Shown here: positions 6,059-30,253 of the stretch, in pieces
Numbering within the stretch: position 1 is the first letter of the stretch
Layout: each line of letters begins with the position of its first letter
Virus record (IMG/VR): IMGVR_UViG_3300036768_000489
Coordinates: 1-30,253 of that record
From: a virus
Length of the DNA: 30,253 bases
Reading direction: 5' to 3' (one strand)
Program-made: the position numbers and the translations under genes
The notes under the pieces: model-generated
Database searches by the model: none
The model's input: the letters and a program-made list of their open reading frames with translations, nothing else
Told to the model about the DNA's origin: nothing

Positions 6059-9000
6059 AGTCTCATCACTTCAATCTGAGAGTCATTTCCAGTTGGATTA
6101 TATTTGAGTTCAACCCAATAACGATGCCACGGATCTTGAAGCGGTCCAAGTTCAAGCCGTATAATTGTGCCTTTAATGGTCTTCGGAAGATAAGGAATTT
6201 CGTAGACTTCATTTGTACCATAATTTGTTTGAATATTCCCAGTTTGAATTACAGAATCTTCACTATATATAGTGTATCCAACCTGTTCTTGATATACAAT
6301 CATATTGACTCTAAATCCAATAATTCTACCAATACGACGTAGCTCAACCGGACCAACTTGATCAAACTTTTTATAAATCGGGAATATTTCTACAATTTCT
6401 GGCGTCTCCATCTTGTAAAATTCAAATGGGTAATTACTACTAAGTATACCATAGAAGTCTATACCAATTGCATCTGTTGTAAAGTAATAGAATACAGTGC
6501 GTGGAAAATTCCCAGTATTAAATGTGGCCGAAGGATATGCTACGCCGTCGAGATATGGTGTGAAAGTTACATTATTCCCCAGTGTATCAATTTGAAACGG
6601 AATTGTCCTGATCCGCTTCTTCTGCGGCGTGCCAAAGTTAGTCTTAGGCAGTATAAGAAATTTTGTAGGAGAAGGCAACTGTTCCATAACGGCATCTTTT
6701 ATTGCTAGACCGTAAAATTCAAATTTTCCATTATTGCCGTCTATTTCAAGATCAAAGTCTACAAATGGTTTATCTTCAGTGAAATAATAAACATGTGTTC
6801 TCTTACCATTTGACATCACAGTAAGAGTATTTTGAGCTACTCCATCAAGATATGGCCTAATAATTGAGTTAGTTCCAAGTGTATCAAGTTCAATCGGGAG
6901 AGCAAGTAGCCTCTTTCTAGCGTATGTCCCGAAGTTAGTTCCGCCGAGTCTATAAAACGTAAGTTGCTCCGGCCGCGGTTCATATTCGATTGTAAAATTA
7001 TAGAATTTAAATCTATTAGTGTTGCATACTATTCTAAGTGCATATCTAAACCCAAGCGGAACTTTATCGGCAATGGTAAATAGCCTTTCGACTTTTCCAG
7101 CAAACCCAACAGTCGAAACTTTTACCCAGCTTTCACCATCCCTTGAAATGTAAATATCTGCATTAGCCCCACCGGTATCCATAGTGACTTTTAGCGTAAA
7201 GACATCTTTTCTATTACGAGGCTGTCCGTTATGATCCCAGATTGTTCTAAGCTCTACGTTGTAATTGTACGGATCTGTATAAATAGTATAAAATCCATAA
7301 ACATACTGCTCATTAATTGCCAAAAGTAAATTACCATCTTCTTCGCCACGTAGAATATTAGCACCTACAGTCCATAGTCTCCAGTAATTTAATTTAAGAT
7401 CATACACAAAAACTTTGGTAGTTCCATCTGTCAGTTTAGTAGAAAAATATAGTTTATTCTTAGCAACTGCTAAAGAGTATTTTCCAGTATTATACAACTT
7501 AAGATCCACCGGGCTAACCCCATGTTTTTCAATTCCATTAAACAACTGATCTAATGGCTCAGAAATTCTCTTATAATTTCCACCTCCAACAATTCTGATA
7601 CCATCTTCGGCCACATATATCACAGAGCTTTCATACACAACATGTGTCTCATGTATTGGAGGAAATCCAGTTCCGAGCGGCGTTACTCTAACATCTAAAG
7701 TTCCATCAGGAAGCAGCGCCGCAGTTCCAGTAATTTCATAAATATCTTCAGTAGTACCAACTAGAAGTTGGTTCATGGATGTGGCCGCAATCCAAAGATT
7801 TTTCTCGGTATTACTTCCAGAAAGTTTAAGGTTCCAGATCGGACTATATAACCCAGGGTCAAACTCATCAGAAAATAGTACCTCTTTATCTGTTATATAA
7901 ACCATTCTATTATTCCAGAGAGAATTAGTTGACATTCTAATCTCATCTGGACTCAACATAATTGACTCAAAACCTTCAAAGTAAACCACATTTTCTAAAA
8001 TAGCATCTTCATCTGGAACATCGTCTATAAATGGGTCAGCAGTTGTTCTTACAGCAACTCTATAAAATTTATCTAGCTTTCTAACTCCTCCAATGGGAAT
8101 TACATCACTTCTCCAAGTAGCATCACGTCTATAGATCCAATATTCATTAACCTGTGAATCAGAAGACGGCGTAGGTGTAACAATGACCTTATTATTTATG
8201 ACCTGAATAGCTGGAGTTGGATCACTAGCTACGCTTTTGGCTAGGTAATAGCCATTGTTATTTACATTGACTTGAATATACTCATAGTAACTATTAAGAG
8301 TCCCTTCAGCCGACCCGGCGAAGAGTATTCCGTTTCTTAGTACAGTGACCTTTGTTTCAGATACAGTATTTACAACTAGTCTAATTCCGTAATATCTCTC
8401 CCAAGAAGTATCATCACTTTGGGAACTTTTTTCAAATTCATGCCTTATACACGTAAAATGCGTCCAGGCATCAGTCGCACCTTTATTTACAAAGTTTGAA
8501 CTCCATGAAAATTTATAATAATCAGTTAGTGGATCTTTTTGAGAATCGAGATAAATAAAAACATTAACCTCAACAACATTATCCGGATTATCAAATTTAA
8601 GCCACATGTGAAATGTGTCGTATGGCGTTCCTGTACTACCATCCGACATATTCATTGTGTTTTCTGGAACAGTTAGATTTTTGTGAATAGTTCCACCAGA
8701 TGCCGTTGTTCTAAATTCAATCCCATCTGTACCGCCTGGATTGAAATTAGAACCTTCTACCAAAGAAAAGTTTGACTCGTCCATTCCGTAAATCATAAAA
8801 TCAGGACGAGCAGCTTCCTGAATTTGTGGAGGATTTTCAGGTTTTACTGGCGTAATATCTGTTAGTCTAGTTCCATCAAATTTTTTTCTAACATTTCCAC
8901 TATACATATACACGTGTCCAAGACCATGTGCAAATGTACAGCGGAATGGAGACCCTCCACCAGTTAGATATTCGATTGCACTATTGCTGTACTGTTTATA

Positions 9001-11422: not shown

Positions 11423-12450
11423 TAATCAATTACCACGCCTATTTCACAGGAGTCAGCTTCAGATTGAGTCCACGCAGAAGATGTAGCCGGATTAGTTGGC
11501 CAAAACTTTTGATAAAACAGATAGGATGAGCTAGGAGAATTAGAATTACCGGCATAGTAAGAAGAACCTTGTTTATTTATGAGTCTAAACGTCAAAGTTC
11601 CGGCATCATCTTTTCTAGCTACGGCCACCACTTTTACACCGCCGATAGTAGATGGAAGTCCTGAGATTGTTCCGGTACTAAAAGACTGCTTGTGACCAGA
11701 TGTGCTAGAATATACATAATCAGAATCTCCATTAGGTGGAATTTCATCTACACACTCATATCTGTTTCCACCAGATGCAGTAAAATCATTATAACTTCCA
11801 TCTGCATTTGGGACTTCATAATAGACTCTATGTTCACCAATATGATCATTATAAGATGTACCAGAGCCATCCATTATATGCAGATTATCTAACCAAGCAT
11901 CGAACATCAACCCCCCAGGATAAACATAAACATTGTCAATTAGGCCAGACGTCCCACCATTTCTAGTATCAATTCCAGTAAGATTTAATATGAAAGAACC
12001 GTCATATTTTATACTGATAGATCCATTAGTATCAGATATAACAACTTTATAAGTTATCCACCTATAAACCTTATACTCATAATCTATCTGATCTGAACTA
12101 CCAAGAAGCGTAGCTGCATCACCGCGATATGCCTTATACGTAACTTTACCTGCATTATAAGTTTGTTTAATTGACACATGACATGTAGTATCTTCAAAAA
12201 ATTTAAGTACATTATATTCTCCGCCGGCATTATAAGTATATGCTCTATGATACCCGACAATAACTGTTTGCGATGGGGAACTAAGTGTATACTGTAAATA
12301 ACTACCATCTCCACCAGTTATCACATAACCACTTGAAAATGGAGTATTACTTGAATTAGTTTCGAGACCAATATTAACTCTAGATGTATAACTTGGCCAG
12401 TTATAACTAGTTGTGTAACCATCAAACCCGTCTATCCACACCAAAGCCAT
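11422..12450 (-). CDS. LamG/concanavalin-like lectin-fold virion protein (342 aa)
   Basis: The ATG overlaps the preceding stop (TAATG) and has GGGAG nearby. The N-terminus (ALVWIDGFDGYTTS) and the run of strands to about residue 195 (ending GGLMFDAWLDNLHIMDGSG) match the single-domain LamG-like jelly roll common in tailed-phage virions. The C-terminal part (about 200-342) is the usual companion segment: GEHRVYYEVPNADGSYNDFT, a Gly/Asn-rich stretch, then VVAVARKDDAGTLTF. Such proteins are thought to be exposed on the particle and may bind glycans. Here the gene directly follows a fused glycosyltransferase-methyltransferase, an interesting pairing because the protein could be a substrate or a receptor binder. 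The fold call is fairly firm; the ligand is unknown. Confidence 0.75.
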   Translation of the reverse strand: MALVWIDGFDGYTTSYNWPSYTSRVNIGLETNSSNTPFSSGYVITGGDGSYLQYTLSSPSQTVIVGYHRAYTYNAGGEYNVLKFFEDTTCHVSIKQTYNAGKVTYKAYRGDAATLLGSSDQIDYEYKVYRWITYKVVISDTNGSISIKYDGSFILNLTGIDTRNGGTSGLIDNVYVYPGGLMFDAWLDNLHIMDGSGTSYNDHIGEHRVYYEVPNADGSYNDFTASGGNRYECVDEIPPNGDSDYVYSSTSGHKQSFSTGTISGLPSTIGGVKVVAVARKDDAGTLTFRLINKQGSSYYAGNSNSPSSSYLFYQKFWPTNPATSSAWTQSEADSCEIGVVID

Positions 12451-13592
12451 TATTTTACTCCCCTCCCAAATAAGTTATAACCAGAATCCCTTTCTATCTC
12501 CACATCTTTAAATCCACAGCGAGTAAGAAGTTCTTTTAATGAGTTTTCAGTAAATCCACTTTTATGAAAATCATACGGATTCAACTGTGCACCATACAGA
12601 ACCCAATTAGCCTCCACCCTATTCATATTTCTAAAAGCCCATTCTATATCTGGGACGATAATCTCAATTTTACAATTTGGCTTGAGTACTCTTTTCCATT
12701 CATAGATTATATTAGTGTGCTCTTCATGACCAAAGTGTTCTAGAACATGACTTGCTCTTACTTTATCAAAACTATCATCACCAAAAGGCAAATTTCTAAC
12801 ATCACATCTATAATCAGGATTAACTTCCTCCCTAATATCGACTCTAACAGTCTTAAATCCATATTCTTTGTAATAAATTTCGCCGCAGCCTATATCAAGC
12901 AGTGCTTTATCATTTACCAAGAGTCTCATAGTTGGCTTAGAACAGGGAGGAATTGTATAACACTTATTATTGGGAAAATCCCAATGCTCACATATAATCG
13001 AAGCGTCGGCAAAAATTTTATAATTCGTTTCCTCACAAACTTTTTTACAAAAATAAAGATCCTCAGTCCAAGTTTCAGATCTATTTAAACCGTTTTCCGA
13101 AAGATCTTCATCGACTGTCTTAAACCAAGGTTTTGACAAATTTTCTAGAATACTCACTCTAATTAGAGTACAGTCCATGCCAATTCCAGTAACTTCAAAA
13201 AACTCTCCAACTTTCCAGTCCCAATAAGAACCACTACCATTTTCTTTAAATACAAGTGGAAAAGGAGGCTCGGATTTTGTAAAGTAAATTCCTCCGCAAA
13301 CACCAATAGTTTCATCTTGTTCCATTCTATAGATAAGATTTCTAAGCGCAAAAGATGGAGGAACCACATCATCACCCAAAAAGTAAATATATTTGAATTT
13401 ATTTTTCAATGCATATTCACATAGTTCCTGCCTGGCTTCATCAACTGGTCGATTTTTTAGAACAAGGTATTGAGTATTAAAATTAATTGGAGGATTCTGT
13501 GATTTAAATGACAATGCCCATTCTAGTCCTACTGGGCGTCCGAGAGTCGGAATTGCAATTAAAACACCTTGTTTAGAATTTACAATTTTCAT
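12450..13592 (-). CDS. Fused glycosyltransferase (GT-A) and class I methyltransferase (380 aa)
   Basis: Two enzymes in one chain. Residues about 8-220 are a GT-A family 2-like glycosyltransferase: VLIAIPTLGRP at the start, a nucleotide/metal-binding strand KYIYFLGDDVVPP (68-79), the acceptor-side GIGMDCTLIRVSIL (136-149) and TWTEDLYFCKK (174-184). Residues about 225-380 are an S-adenosylmethionine-dependent methyltransferase: LLDIGCG (231-237), VDIREE (251-256), CDVRNLPF (263-270), HVLEHF (282-287) and KRVLKP (300-305). The metal-site strand has GDD rather than DDD, so activity may be altered. Both halves resemble the adjacent separate genes (14598-15344 and 14086-14601) in the same order, including GxQLNxYDxH in the methyltransferase part. 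GAGG lies five bases before the ATG. Likely targets are a virion or host surface glycan; this is not determined. Confidence 0.82.
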   Translation of the reverse strand: MKIVNSKQGVLIAIPTLGRPVGLEWALSFKSQNPPINFNTQYLVLKNRPVDEARQELCEYALKNKFKYIYFLGDDVVPPSFALRNLIYRMEQDETIGVCGGIYFTKSEPPFPLVFKENGSGSYWDWKVGEFFEVTGIGMDCTLIRVSILENLSKPWFKTVDEDLSENGLNRSETWTEDLYFCKKVCEETNYKIFADASIICEHWDFPNNKCYTIPPCSKPTMRLLVNDKALLDIGCGEIYYKEYGFKTVRVDIREEVNPDYRCDVRNLPFGDDSFDKVRASHVLEHFGHEEHTNIIYEWKRVLKPNCKIEIIVPDIEWAFRNMNRVEANWVLYGAQLNPYDFHKSGFTENSLKELLTRCGFKDVEIERDSGYNLFGRGVK

Positions 13593-13599
13593 AAAAACC

Positions 13600-14058
13600 T
13601 CATCCAGAAATATAATAATTAACTTCCAAAGTATTCGAAGTTGTTTTATTAATCGTACCGAATGTTGCCCTTGCTAGCATTGTCCCACCGGAGCTACTAT
13701 TAAATAGTCCGGCTTCTGACAAAGTCGTATTAGCTTCATTAGAAGCAAATAAGACCTGAGCTCTCCAATATGGAACTGTTGAAGTAAGCCCGTCAGTGAT
13801 AAAACTTGAAATTTGCTTTCTAGCATACTCATTACCAAGTGCAGTATCAGCAGTAGTGGGAGATGTTGTAGAAGTTCCGACTGCAAGATAAGAGATTGAC
13901 TGATTAGTAGTCATAAGTGATGAAGCAATTTGTTTAAGAACCCAAACTCTACCAGTAGTTACTACAACATTATTCTGCCTAACTGTTTCTACAACTTCAC
14001 CATTTAGATTTTTAAGGACGAGCTCAAGAGCTCCTTTGAGTTTGATAGTATCTTCCAT
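13600..14058 (-). CDS. Small beta-sandwich virion protein (152 aa)
   Basis: The start has GGAGG six bases before the ATG. The 152-residue product has the layout of a small structural protein seen widely in tailed phages: a first strand pair (LELVLKNLNGEVVETVRQNNVVVTTGRVWVLKQI), then ISYLAVGTSTTSPTTADTALGNE, then a long strand ending in TLSEAGLFNSSSGGTMLARATF and a final strand. The order VGTGxT...DTxL...EAGxF...GGTMLARxxF is the recognisable signature. Such proteins are usually virion components of undefined position, often near tail or receptor-binding genes. It sits between the separate methyltransferase and the fused enzyme, so it could be the protein they modify, though nothing in the sequence proves this. 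Confidence 0.72.
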   Translation of the reverse strand: MEDTIKLKGALELVLKNLNGEVVETVRQNNVVVTTGRVWVLKQIASSLMTTNQSISYLAVGTSTTSPTTADTALGNEYARKQISSFITDGLTSTVPYWRAQVLFASNEANTTLSEAGLFNSSSGGTMLARATFGTINKTTSNTLEVNYYISG

Positions 14059-14085
14059 GTATTACCTCCGTGATTACCTTATAGC

Positions 14086-14601
14086 TTAACTTATAAGTGA
14101 AATAGCTTCGTCATACCTAATTGTATCACCCTTACTGGCGACTACAAAGGTGTTGAAGTCTTGGGTTGGTTCACTTTCTGTGATCAAAACCTCAAAACCA
14201 ACATCCAGCATCAACTGAGTAAACTCAAAAGTATCCATTATGCAAACATGGTAATCAAATTGATTAAGCTGTCTGCCAAAAATCGTAGCTTCCCAAAATT
14301 CTCTAAGACCTTTATAGTTACTTTCCCAGTATTTATAGCATTTCTTAAACTCTGGATATGAAAATAGCACAACTCCACCAGGCTTCAACACTCTATAGAA
14401 TTCGACGAGAGTCTGTTTATGATAAAGTTTTTTAATATGTTCAATAACGTGGCATGCATATATTCTATCAAATGAGTTATTATCAAATGGAAGTGGATCA
14501 GTGATATCACATACAATATCAGGTTTAGTATCTGGGTTTATATCAACATTGATAGCATCGGGCATCTTATTAAATCCACAACCAACATTTAGAATTTTCA
14601 T
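14086..14601 (-). CDS. Class I SAM-dependent methyltransferase (171 aa)
   Basis: A short methyltransferase of the Methyltransf_11 type. Motif I is ILNVGCG (3-9), followed by the acidic strand NVDINPD (18-24), CDITDPLPF (31-39), the HVIEHI helix (51-56) and YRVLKPGG (69-76). Cofactor binding is therefore well supported; the substrate is not visible. The ATG overlaps the stop of the preceding glycosyltransferase by four bases, and AAGGGA lies eight bases upstream, so the two are translationally coupled and probably act in sequence, for example adding then methylating a sugar. Residues 108-118 (FGRQLNQFDYH) match a segment of the methyltransferase half of the fused enzyme, supporting duplication. 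Confidence 0.83.
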   Translation of the reverse strand: MKILNVGCGFNKMPDAINVDINPDTKPDIVCDITDPLPFDNNSFDRIYACHVIEHIKKLYHKQTLVEFYRVLKPGGVVLFSYPEFKKCYKYWESNYKGLREFWEATIFGRQLNQFDYHVCIMDTFEFTQLMLDVGFEVLITESEPTQDFNTFVVASKGDTIRYDEAISLIS

Positions 14602-15344
14602 ATACTGATCCCTTTTGATTCAACAACTTTTCTAATACTTTCAATATAGTTAGCACCTCTGTCAACTTCTTTACTATTTTGAAAATTCTTATAAAAATCT
14701 CTTAGATACTTCACAGTATCTTCCATAACTGCTTCTTTATCAAGCAAATGCCCAGTAGGAACACGCGTATCGACAGCAATAGTTACATTCGGATATTCTG
14801 ATTTACACTTTAGACAGAAATAAACATCCTCTGTATTATTGGGAGTAGTAATAAAATAAGGTTTGCTAATTTGCCTAAGCAAGCTGGTTTTAATAAGTAC
14901 GCAAGCAAACCCAACAGCATCAACAGCAACCAATCCTTTCTCATCCTTATGCTCCAGTAAATCGGTATAATACCTAAGTTCAAAATCAGGATCTCCAAAT
15001 TTACCCCTCGCCGTAATAAACGCCATAGGATTAAATGGATAACCTCGAATGTATGTGTGTGCCATCACAATATCTTTATCAGCATCAACCAAAGATTCAA
15101 GAGTATTTGGAGATACCAACATATCATCATCAATAAACATTAGATAGTCACAATCAGTTTGCAATGCATAAGCTGCGGCCATGTTTCTCATCCTATCAAT
15201 TGATAGCCGCCACGGTGTATACAAGAGAACTTCAATATTTTTACTTTCTTTAAGACGACCCAGATGATAGAAAAAAGCCATATGATTGCCGTAGACTTGG
15301 CTATCTATCATTGTCAATGTATTAATTCCAATAAGTACCTTCAT
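14598..15344 (-). CDS. GT-A glycosyltransferase (248 aa)
   Basis: The product begins with the strand MKVLIGINTL and carries a clear nucleotide-sugar/metal site YLMFIDDDMLVSP (67-79, DDD at 72-74). VDAVGFACVLIKTSLL (141-156) and NTEDVYFCLKC (170-180) complete the usual family 2 plan. Acceptor and donor are unknown. The start lies 10 bases after a strong hairpin and lacks a good Shine-Dalgarno (only A/T-rich bases precede it), so expression should be much lower than that of the capsid genes upstream. It overlaps the following methyltransferase by four bases. The glycosyltransferase half of the fused gene aligns with it along its length. Modification of a virion protein or of the host surface is the likely role, by inference. 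Confidence 0.82.
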   Translation of the reverse strand: MKVLIGINTLTMIDSQVYGNHMAFFYHLGRLKESKNIEVLLYTPWRLSIDRMRNMAAAYALQTDCDYLMFIDDDMLVSPNTLESLVDADKDIVMAHTYIRGYPFNPMAFITARGKFGDPDFELRYYTDLLEHKDEKGLVAVDAVGFACVLIKTSLLRQISKPYFITTPNNTEDVYFCLKCKSEYPNVTIAVDTRVPTGHLLDKEAVMEDTVKYLRDFYKNFQNSKEVDRGANYIESIRKVVESKGISI

Positions 15345-15389: not shown

Positions 15390-15890
15390 TTAAATAAGTG
15401 CCCTCACCCAAGCTTTAACATTTGCATAAGACACAAGATCAGTCAAAGTCGAGTTAGATGCTACTGATGCAACTGAAGCCAAATTTTCAAGGAGAATAAT
15501 TCCTGGAGTTTGACTTGCTACTGTATCTGCGCTGTATACAAACCCGTTTTTAGTATCAAGTGTATAATAAGCCCCGGCAGGCCTTGATGCAACAGATGCA
15601 AAAGAATCTGTAGAAGCTGCACGAGTTCTTACAACAATTCGAGCATTTGCAACATAACCTCTTGCAACAACATTTGCAATCCCACCTGGAGTTGTTGGAG
15701 ATGTACAAACACCTGCAAACAATGAAGTCATTGTTCCAGTGCCAGAAGTTGAAGGAAGCACAATTTTAGCAGGGTCTGCGGTTGAAAGAACTACAGGAGC
15801 ACCAGCTGGAATTGTAGCCGAAGATTCCCCTGAATAAGCAGAAAATCTTGCTCTCCAAGGACGATCATAGCTTCCGGGAGTTGAGTTCAT
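15390..15890 (-). CDS. Capsid decoration / head-stabilising protein candidate (166 aa)
   Basis: The start has GGAGG six bases before the ATG. The 166-residue product is rich in Ala, Ser, Thr and Val with strand-like spacing and few charges: after a polar N-terminus (about 1-20) come SGESSATIPAGAPVVLST, a FAGVCTSPTTPGGIANVVARGYV segment and a C-terminal strand set. That composition and the AGVxxxxxxPGxxxxVxxxGYV pattern are typical of small head decoration proteins encoded next to the major capsid gene. Here it directly follows the capsid gene and precedes a terminator-like hairpin, consistent with high expression. A head fibre base is an alternative. The role is inferred from composition and position. 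Confidence 0.65.
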   Translation of the reverse strand: MNSTPGSYDRPWRARFSAYSGESSATIPAGAPVVLSTADPAKIVLPSTSGTGTMTSLFAGVCTSPTTPGGIANVVARGYVANARIVVRTRAASTDSFASVASRPAGAYYTLDTKNGFVYSADTVASQTPGIILLENLASVASVASNSTLTDLVSYANVKAWVRALI

Positions 15891-15910: not shown

Positions 15911-16981
15911 TTAACTCAACGAACGAGCAATATTTCCAAGAACTCCACACTTACGCCGATTATTTACAGTAACTGTACCCATCCAAAGGATGTGCTGATA
16001 ACGAGCATCTTGGTTAACTGGCCGCAGCATTGGAGTCGTGACAAAGTTTGTATCAGATTCATAAACACATTCAAAAGAACGAGAGTTGATAAAGTACATT
16101 GTGCCTTTGCCTGTGCTGCTAGTATCAAGATTTCCACCAGCAACATTTGGCACATATTCATCCCAGACAACCAAAGCATTAAAGAACTTCAAATTAGGAA
16201 ATGGGAAATTTCCATCAGACATTGTAGTATTAAGAAAATAAGCCCTATAAGAAGCGTGGACAAGCTCCCATGTAATCTGATCGCAGAGAATTAGATCCGG
16301 CGGTCCACCAGGGCCTTTACTACAGGCATTATACATGTTAAGAACTTCTTGCATAAAAGCTTCTCTAGTAGTCGCCGTAGAAGCTTTAGATTGATTCCTC
16401 CACCAAGTAGCAGTGTTTTGGTCAATACCACCAATAGAAAGTGAAGGCCACGCTGAGGCAGGCTCGTAATAAATCAGCTTTGGAAGTGGATCAACAAAGT
16501 AAGATCCATTAACAGGGGAAGTATATGGAGTTGTAAGCGAGGAACCACTACCAGCAAGAGAACCTTGCAAGAAAGCCTTTGCCCAAAACTCCCTCATTGA
16601 GATCTCAGCCTGTTTAATTTTAGATTCAATGAGTGAAATAATACGCTGTTTATTCATTTTCTCTTGCTTGCCAGTAATGGCAATTGGAGTAACAGCCTGA
16701 GCCCACTGAAATTGAGCCTGAGTAATCCCATCAGTAAACGTCAGCGGGAGTTCATCAGCCCCGTCATAGCTGTCAGTGGGAGACAGCCCATACATCAAAT
16801 CAACAGCAACATAAAGTCCGCCATCTTGAGATGTCCAGTTAACTGTCTTAAAGAAAGCATTAGACGAACTAATGTTATCTTGAAGCTGCTTTCTATATGC
16901 AGCCAGCGAGGTTGAAACTAGAGCATCATAATTAAAAACTGATTGTGCTGGCTGCCCCGGAATTCCATAAGTAAGTGGCAT
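15911..16981 (-). CDS. Major capsid protein, HK97-type fold
   Basis: The ATG has AAAGGAG nine bases upstream. The 356-residue product fits an HK97-type shell protein: a polar N-terminal arm (1-55), beta elements around LPLTFTDGITQAQFQWAQAVTPIAI (78-102), a long spine helix KMNKQRIISLIESKIKQAEISMREFWAKAFLQG (about 108-140) and an axial/peripheral domain ending in RPVNQDARYQHILWMGTVTVNNRRKCGVLGNI. It follows a scaffold gene and a portal gene in the standard order portal, scaffold, capsid. There is no protease signature inside it, and no large N-terminal delta domain is evident because a separate scaffold is encoded. The call is firm from order, size and pattern, without a database comparison. 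Confidence 0.88.
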   Translation of the reverse strand: MPLTYGIPGQPAQSVFNYDALVSTSLAAYRKQLQDNISSSNAFFKTVNWTSQDGGLYVAVDLMYGLSPTDSYDGADELPLTFTDGITQAQFQWAQAVTPIAITGKQEKMNKQRIISLIESKIKQAEISMREFWAKAFLQGSLAGSGSSLTTPYTSPVNGSYFVDPLPKLIYYEPASAWPSLSIGGIDQNTATWWRNQSKASTATTREAFMQEVLNMYNACSKGPGGPPDLILCDQITWELVHASYRAYFLNTTMSDGNFPFPNLKFFNALVVWDEYVPNVAGGNLDTSSTGKGTMYFINSRSFECVYESDTNFVTTPMLRPVNQDARYQHILWMGTVTVNNRRKCGVLGNIARSLS

Positions 16982-23939: not shown

Positions 23940-24045
23940 TTGTTCTTAGTCTAGATTCTAATATACCAAAATACCTGCCAGCCAGAAATACTCCAACTAA
24001 GATTGAAGATCCGGCGAGGATTTCCTGGAAGATTCCGTATCCCAC
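23818..24045 (-). CDS. Holin-like single-span membrane protein with coiled coil (about 75 aa)
   Basis: The frame opens at a GTG (24069) inside the end of the M15 peptidase gene; a second GTG at 24045 gives MGYGIFQEILAGSSIL and a cleaner N-terminus. Neither has a strong ribosome site, so the start is uncertain. Residues about 4-27 form one membrane helix (FQEILAGSSILVGVFLAGRYFGIL), followed by a coiled coil (about 38-65) and a basic end (HRNKRRSN). One N-terminal span followed by a charged helix is the layout of BhlA/UviB-like holins and of spanin-like proteins. Its position directly after a cell-wall peptidase supports a lysis role. The function is inferred. Confidence 0.55.
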   Translation of the reverse strand: MGYGIFQEILAGSSILVGVFLAGRYFGILESRLRTNGKSGTIEQQLQLISLRLSEISSRLEQHLEEYHRNKRRSN

Positions 24046-24440
24046 TTTAATACACCGTCGTAAAACCACATAGCCGGCGAGGTTCTAACATCTACATGCA
24101 AATAGCGTTGGCCAATTCCAATACCTGAAAATTTTACCTGAGATTTGTGCAACAGAATAAGAATTTCTGGACCAGTAAGAGCCTTGTAAGCATTTTCACC
24201 TGATTTAACTTGGATGCTAATATCAGCCGCCTCGCCAACAAGATGTCTGGATTCTGGTGCGCCGCCGACTTCAGCATTTCTTTTACTGCATCTAAAGCCG
24301 GATAGCACTATGATAGGGAGTTTTACATAGTCCCTGAATTGTTGCAGCTTATAAACTAACTCCGGAGATATCCTGTCTTCTCCCTGGCCGCAACAAGGGC
24401 AGATAAATTCTTTAGAATCAAAGTTTTTTGAGAGTTTCAT
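23997..24440 (-). CDS. M15-type peptidoglycan peptidase (endolysin candidate, 147 aa)
   Basis: A zinc D,D- or L,D-carboxypeptidase/endopeptidase of the M15 (Hedgehog/VanY-like) fold. Residues 12-18 (FICPCCG) are the usual N-terminal element. SGFRCSKRNAEVGGAPESRHLVGEAADI (47-74) holds two zinc ligands, H66 and D73, and YLHVDVR (113-119) provides the third, H115. At 147 residues it is a complete single-domain enzyme with no separate cell-wall-binding domain. There is no signal peptide, so release would need the holin-like protein encoded next. It overlaps the 46-residue gene upstream by four bases (ATGA). Cleavage of peptide cross-links at lysis is the likely role; a virion-associated lysin is less likely. 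Confidence 0.85.
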   Translation of the reverse strand: MKLSKNFDSKEFICPCCGQGEDRISPELVYKLQQFRDYVKLPIIVLSGFRCSKRNAEVGGAPESRHLVGEAADISIQVKSGENAYKALTGPEILILLHKSQVKFSGIGIGQRYLHVDVRTSPAMWFYDGVLKWDTESSRKSSPDLQS

Positions 24441-28837: not shown

Positions 28838-29038
28838 ATGTCCCCGTTTAAAGATTTCAATGAAGCAATTAAATGGCTTCAAGATAATGCAACGGGCCCG
28901 GTTTCTGTTCTGTTGATAAATGAGACAGAAATTCTCTCAGGGTCATTCACGTTGCGGTCAAAGAAGTATAAAGAGAATCTCAAAAAAGCCCTAGTAGAAA
29001 AGGGTAAAGAAGATGCTAATAAAGACCAGTTGCAATAA
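28838..29038 (+). CDS. Small early protein of unknown function (66 aa)
   Basis: The ATG at 28838 has GGAG seven bases upstream, spanning the preceding stop; the longer open frame reaching back to 28724 only overlaps protein B. The 66-residue product starts MSPFKDFNEAIKWLQDNATG, then a strand pair (PVSVLLINETEILSGSFTL) and a basic helix to the end. No family recognised. It overlaps the helicase start by 26 bases, so the two are co-translated. Confidence 0.65.
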   Translation: MSPFKDFNEAIKWLQDNATGPVSVLLINETEILSGSFTLRSKKYKENLKKALVEKGKEDANKDQLQ

Positions 29039-30253
29039 ACTGTCAGAAGCCACGCTAACTCCATATAAAGAGCCCGGAGTTAGTGTGCTAACTTTTATTC
29101 CTTGTAACAAGATCCAAGATCTTGATTATGAAGAAGAAATAGAAACAGGGATTTTCCGCTTTCTCAAATGCGGCCACGTCATATTTGAACCACACAAAAA
29201 AGAGGAAATACGTAAACGCCACCCGATTCTTTGGAATTGGTTGTTACCGTTTCAAAAAGAGAGCGTCGAAAAATTAGAAAAAAGAAACGGCCGCGCATTA
29301 CTCGCTCATGAAATGGGATTGGGGAAAACAGTAATTTCTCTTTCTTATTTAAGAGAGAACAAAGAAACCGCTCTTTCCAAATATTGCCTAATTGTCACAC
29401 AAGCAGGAGATATTTTCAGGTGGAAAGAGGAAGCAGTAATATGGCTCGGACTTTCAGATCCTAGCCATATTATTGCGTCTGGAGATATCAAATTCGAAGA
29501 CCTCTTCTCTCCAGAACTAATCAGAATGTTTCCAGTAGTCTATACTGGAAACGGAAATCTCCCTCCGAATGGCGGGGTAATCATCACGTCTTGGACTCGT
29601 CTACGAGAAAAGAAATTCACCGACCAATTAAAAAAGGTTGGAATTTCTTGCTTCATTGTTGACGAGTCACACATGTATAAAAACCCCAATACTGGAAGGA
29701 CAAGATATCTATTAGATCTAATTTCTTGGGCGGATAAAAATAATGGGTACGCTACGCCAGTAATTTTTCTCTCTGGCACTCCAATTACAAATCGTCTCTC
29801 AGAGTTCACAACAACTCTCAACGTTCTAGATCCGATTCACTTTCCGAGCCCGCAGAGCGTTCTCAGATTCTGCGATTACGATTTTTATTCCAAGAAATAT
29901 CTTGGAATTAACAAATACCGCAGAGAACGCTTCTTCGAGCTTACGCGGAACTATGTATTCCGGGAAACTGCGGAAAGCGTACACCTGCCACTTCCTCCGC
30001 TTAAAACCGATGAAATTTTCGTTAACATTCAGAAATGGAATGCTAACGAACAGTTTGCGGCGGAATATAATGAGATTCTCGATGCTCTAGAGAGTGAAAT
30101 TAATTCCTCCCAACCCAATTCTGGAAACGTTCTGGGATATATGTCACAATTACGCCGCTGCACTGGAATGATGAAAGTTCTCGATATTGCAGCGTTTGCA
30201 GACAATTTTCTTCTAGAATACCCAGAAGAAAAACTCTGCATCGGAGTTCATCA
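29013..30253 (+). CDS. SNF2-type DEAD/DEAH helicase, C-terminus cut by window edge
   Basis: The ATG at 29013 lies in the right frame after AAAAGGGTAAAGAAG, and 413 codons are visible before the window ends. After an N-terminal region (1-75) comes the Q-type segment LLPFQKESVEKL (77-88), motif I HEMGLGKT (99-106), motif Ia around LIVTQAGDIFRWKEE (126-140), motif II VDESHMYKN (216-224) and motif III IFLSGTPITNR (251-261). These and the spacing fit the first RecA domain of SNF2-family DNA translocases, common in phage replication modules. The second RecA domain with motifs V and VI lies mostly beyond the window. Role: remodelling or unwinding DNA at early replication or recombination, inferred from family. 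Confidence 0.9.
   Translation, partial: MLIKTSCNKLSEATLTPYKEPGVSVLTFIPCNKIQDLDYEEEIETGIFRFLKCGHVIFEPHKKEEIRKRHPILWNWLLPFQKESVEKLEKRNGRALLAHEMGLGKTVISLSYLRENKETALSKYCLIVTQAGDIFRWKEEAVIWLGLSDPSHIIASGDIKFEDLFSPELIRMFPVVYTGNGNLPPNGGVIITSWTRLREKKFTDQLKKVGISCFIVDESHMYKNPNTGRTRYLLDLISWADKNNGYATPVIFLSGTPITNRLSEFTTTLNVLDPIHFPSPQSVLRFCDYDFYSKKYLGINKYRRERFFELTRNYVFRETAESVHLPLPPLKTDEIFVNIQKWNANEQFAAEYNEILDALESEINSSQPNSGNVLGYMSQLRRCTGMMKVLDIAAFADNFLLEYPEEKLCIGVH

Follow-up and report, generated by a model that had tools for sequence, protein, structure and literature searches.

Glycosylated virus particles have been described for a few cultured viruses. According to two accounts (PMC11256854, PMC12363180) citing Freeman et al. 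2023, the virions of the mycobacteriophages Che8, Corndog and Myrna are glycosylated, with phage glycosyltransferases (GTs) modifying capsid or tail proteins. The likeness of our locus to these phages is one of description, and the texts of the two accounts mention neither a fusion of a GT to a methyltransferase (MT) nor a cassette linkage of the type described below for the small virion protein fib152.

By fold, the closest known protein is A197 of the archaeal virus STIV. A197 is essential and the capsid protein of STIV is glycosylated (PMC10551542); the catalytic base of A197 is D151 (PMC4187194). The variant D151E delays replication, and A197 is a suspected capsid glycosyltransferase whose donor and acceptor are unproven. 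It was the best fold match of the GT domain of the fused GT-MT protein encoded in our locus (2c0n, Z 20.3, with 24% identity across 173 residues), and D178 of the fused GT fell on D151 in a profile match (E 8e-4). There are also differences. A197 stands alone without an MT, whereas the fused enzyme has one; its DED motif keeps the first Asp of DXD, whereas the fused clade has GDD; and STIV has an unrelated capsid. Further fold matches after A197 were LH3, mimivirus R699, COLGALT1 and Mnn9. LH3, COLGALT1 and Mnn9 (Anp1/GT62) share the GT-A fold (Z 15-17), and the separate GT of our locus exceeds the Pfam Anp1 cut-off (1.7e-8); however, these proteins are eukaryotic, larger and multidomain, with an identity of about 15%. 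Phages with a GT and/or MT directly behind the capsid genes include the Manatee Spring phage ctKR88 (MW202524), MW202496, MW202711, MW202573 and the Microcystis phage Mel-JY34, but these have other backbones and 25-33% identity, and no fib152 cassette was seen in them.

The window, i.e. the whole stretch of DNA analysed here, is a 30,253-bp fragment of an uncultivated tailed phage. Its late operon lies on the minus strand and encodes TerL, an SU10-type portal, an ORF at the scaffold position, the major capsid protein (MCP), p166, GT, MT and fib152, followed by the fused GT-MT, a 342-aa protein, a 298-aa protein and two SU10-type adaptors. The MCP (15911..16981, minus strand) matches PHROG 9953, major head protein (E 2.7e-37), and is only 26-28% identical to the nearest isolates; searches with TerL and MCP found no close cultured relative. 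Elsewhere in the window we observed a Peptidase M15, probably an endolysin (23997-24440, 1.1e-16), and a fragment of an SNF2-type helicase (29013-30251, 9.8e-25).

Three ORFs encode the enzymes, all on the minus strand. The separate, or core, pair consists of a 248-aa GT (14598-15344; DDD at residues 72-74, ED at 172-173) and a 171-aa class I SAM methyltransferase (14086-14601, Pfam Methyltransf_11), whose genes share 4 bp (14598-14601). A fused GT-MT of 380 aa (12450-13592) carries the two domains in the same order, with the GT domain at about residues 5-217 and the MT domain at about 228-380. These positions agree with the first-pass annotation of this DNA, as does its claim of shared domains: the copies are 25% identical over 168 columns for GT (E 1e-10) and 29% over 154 columns for MT (E 5e-19), a similarity beyond chance. 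Pfam gave a sub-threshold GT2 match in both GTs, and Methyltransf_11 matches above the cut-off in both MT parts (8e-10 and 1e-11). The model of the fused protein (P0001, pLDDT 86.7) points to a GT-A glycosyltransferase with an A197-like fold; the separate GT is assigned to GT-A from its sequence, the fold comparison being that of the fused model. The fused MT domain matched many class I SAM methyltransferases (Z 16), and the motif DIGCG was observed. Outside one clade in which the fused MT has decayed, both MTs are assigned to the class I SAM methyltransferases, which have a Rossmann fold and a glycine-rich motif I, the separate MT from its sequence.

The two GTs differ at the metal site, as had been noted at first pass. 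DDD is invariant among six relatives of the separate GT, whereas in the fused clade GDD is near-fixed, with one SDD, and the last Asp is kept; wider GT relatives have mostly DED or DDD, and one has GTD. The suggestion that GDD marks a lost activity is not supported, although a different donor or use of metal is possible. The ED motif, which includes the presumed catalytic Asp, is invariant among 24 fused-type and six core GTs, and ED178 and H203 are present in every sampled fused GT. Both GTs are under purifying selection, and in the close pairs that allowed an estimate the fused GT has a dN/dS of 0.03-0.10. We thus reject an inactive fused GT; the protein does not look dead and is a predicted enzyme, judged by its conserved residues. 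Two side observations concern the integrity of these genes. A probable intein (LAGLIDADG_3 E 1.5e-5) lies inside the fib152-linked GT-MT gene of contigs L152 and L168 (14023-16506), spanning CYSADTEV... to ...CGN immediately ahead of the Thr equivalent to T159 of the window, and in L085 (10903-12076) a frameshift, either a sequencing error or a real break, divides the fused gene.

The fate of the fused MT differs from that of the GT to which it is attached. Within a single clade of the phage phylogeny (L033, L034, L035, L037, L038, L041-L043, L088, L095 and L101) the MT half has decayed and the GT half is kept. The remnant lacks motif I, the acidic residue after motif I, SHVLEH and the GxQxxxxDxH region, and its dN/dS is 0.11-0.52, compared to 0.06-0.08 in intact copies. 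The core MT was lost as well in L037 and L040. Since MT is lost where GT is retained, the GT step looks more constrained than methylation.

The core pair was found next to the capsid genes in nearly all relatives. Profile scans of viral contigs yielded about 70 related contigs; P0003 as a single query of viral contigs gave no confirmed relative, and a search of genome contigs with the fused profile gave one groundwater MAG contig without host assignment. The block MCP-p166-GT-MT is present in 64 of the 66 relatives bearing an MCP, a count subject to bias, since GT or MT queries retrieved many of these contigs. The two exceptions are L006, a contig that stops behind GT, and L040, which has lost MT and has GT abutting adaptor 1. 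Contigs found via fib152 keep MCP-p166-GT, with L118, L120 and L123 having no core MT. A second copy of the p166 family lies directly 3' of the core MT region in L097 (9984-10484), and a Priestia megaterium plasmid (L111, 1-3844) carries a distant GT relative two genes away from one for a collagen-like repeat protein.

The protein p166 (15390..15890, minus strand) is encoded beside MCP, and its AlphaFold model (pLDDT 87) suggests a capsid-decoration fold. The highest VIA Z scores were 11.0 to HFTV1 (8qsy) and 10.1 to Pa193 (9b40), with a third of 9.9 to a solved decoration protein, and the decoration proteins of T1, E217, TW1 and Pam3 were matched as well. Downstream of the core pair, fib152 (13600..14058, minus strand) is predicted to be a small fibre-like virion protein from its matches to PHROG 5417 (E 7e-24) and PHROG 4176 (tail fiber, 1e-12) only; its match to Pfam Gp80 (podophage GP4 fiber I) reached 21.8 bits, below the cut-off of 27. 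The Ser plus Thr content is 25.7% in fib152 and 24% in p166 of the window, and the family means of 24.5% and 20.0% are the two highest among the virion proteins here; beta-rich virion proteins are often rich in Ser and Thr. The first-pass annotation had also placed a LamG protein beside the enzymes, but the neighbouring 342-aa protein has no LamG match in Pfam or PHROGs.

We next consider the linkage of fib152 to the fused enzyme. Of the 40 contigs that include MCP, adaptor 2 and the large gene that follows, some of which are near-copies, 19 contain both fib152 and a fused-type GT, 21 contain neither, and none is discordant. This state changed at least five times on the MCP, portal and TerL tree, and all four independent pairs on this tree were concordant, too few for significance (p 0.125). 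A scan seeded with fib152, and thus blind to GT, detected a fused-type GT at most 1.9 kb downstream in all 37 fib152 copies of this lineage with downstream sequence. The same scan detected one within 5.4 kb of fib152 in ten other backbones, in some of them at a distance of 3-5 kb; four further backbones, which end 0 to 3.9 kb beyond fib152, are outside this count. In the fetched stretches of the other fib152 backbones, neither the MCP nor an adaptor nor the core GT of this lineage was detected. The cassette occupies three positions, following either MT, adaptor 1 or adaptor 2. No fused-type GT was present in the stretches read of the isolates BUCT-ZZ01 and Simon, which have distant fib152 homologues.

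How the two enzyme sets are related was analysed by phylogeny. The GT trees place the separate GTs in a clade of their own (100/99 and 99/98); the fused types make up a second clade, with which fused proteins from other backbones group. A joint clade of this lineage's core and fused GTs was rejected by the AU test (p 0.044), and again when other backbones were added (p 0.013, lnL difference 52.6), whereas uniting every fused GT with the separate GTs was borderline (p 0.053). The separate MTs also form a firm clade (98/97, 100/99), but none of the corresponding MT constraints was rejected (p 0.127, 0.36 and 0.16). Duplication within the lineage followed by fusion, which had been the first-pass explanation, is not supported, as the GT tree rejects it and the fused protein tracks fib152 and not the core pair; the MT tree is not decisive. 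From the GT rejection, the MT non-rejection and the borderline test of all fused GTs, we conclude that a recent duplication is unlikely whereas an ancient one is possible. An ancestral duplication of the separate pair, followed by fusion and later specialisation of the copies, would explain the homology and the identical domain order. The MT tree does not reject it either, and for GT a very old event is only borderline. However, the fused side of the MT tree also includes MTs from Azospirillum, Vitreoscilla and other phages, and fusions in both domain orders have arisen elsewhere too, in S-CRM01 and in L152, where a 406-aa MT-GT fusion of reverse order (6823-8043) lies upstream of fib152. Together with the separation of the GT clades, this makes an ancestral duplication quite improbable. 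The two forms represent deep clades of their own, and in the best reading each was acquired separately.

Based on these observations, we lean towards two independently acquired modules for virion-directed glycosylation, one for the capsid surface (p166 or MCP) and one for fib152. Module 1, behind the major capsid gene, would comprise p166, GT and MT. Its GT-A enzyme probably adds a sugar to p166 or MCP, and its MT probably methylates either the attached sugar or the protein that carries it. Module 2 would be a transferable cassette of fib152 and the fused GT-MT, in which the GT probably glycosylates fib152 and the attached MT domain would add a methyl group. We regard p166 as the candidate acceptor of the separate pair and fib152 as that of the fused enzyme, although neighbourhood is no proof; for module 1 the acceptor could also be MCP, and for module 2 a tail protein other than fib152. 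The sugar taken from the presumed donor would form a glycan that may have a role in adsorption or masking.

Alternatively, both GTs might build a single virion glycan in sequence, with a first sugar, an extension and a methyl cap. Both GTs belong to one late operon, and in L160 (9644-13965) the genes beside fib152 form a series of MT, a 367-aa ORF without a match, a weak GT, a further MT and a fused GT-MT, which would suit such a pathway. Nevertheless, 21 of the 40 well-covered relatives contain the core pair alone, without fib152 and fused GT, and other backbones contain the fused enzyme and fib152 with no core pair detected. As each set occurs alone, neither needs the other, and we consider a sequential pathway unlikely. 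Other kinds of phage GTs and MTs act on phage DNA or on the surface of the host, and by this general precedent the enzymes could serve to avoid restriction or to exclude superinfection. However, both enzyme sets lie among head and connector genes and the closest protein by fold is a viral GT associated with glycosylation of the capsid. Furthermore, none of the genes scanned was recognised as one for base hypermodification, which weighs little as the window is a fragment. We consider such targets very unlikely. The location in the virion module, as first annotated, is supported, and action on virion proteins is probable.

Under the reading of two virion-directed modules, a small fibre protein may carry its own dedicated fused GT-MT between unrelated backbones, in phages that already glycosylate their capsid surface via a second, separately acquired GT-MT pair; we put this forward tentatively, as a fairly even prospect. 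If true, a broad uncultured podovirus-like group would pair enzyme sets with specific particle proteins, offering candidate pairs of GT and acceptor that are open to direct testing. The clade in which the methyl-adding half was lost while the sugar-adding half was kept would then constitute a natural experiment.
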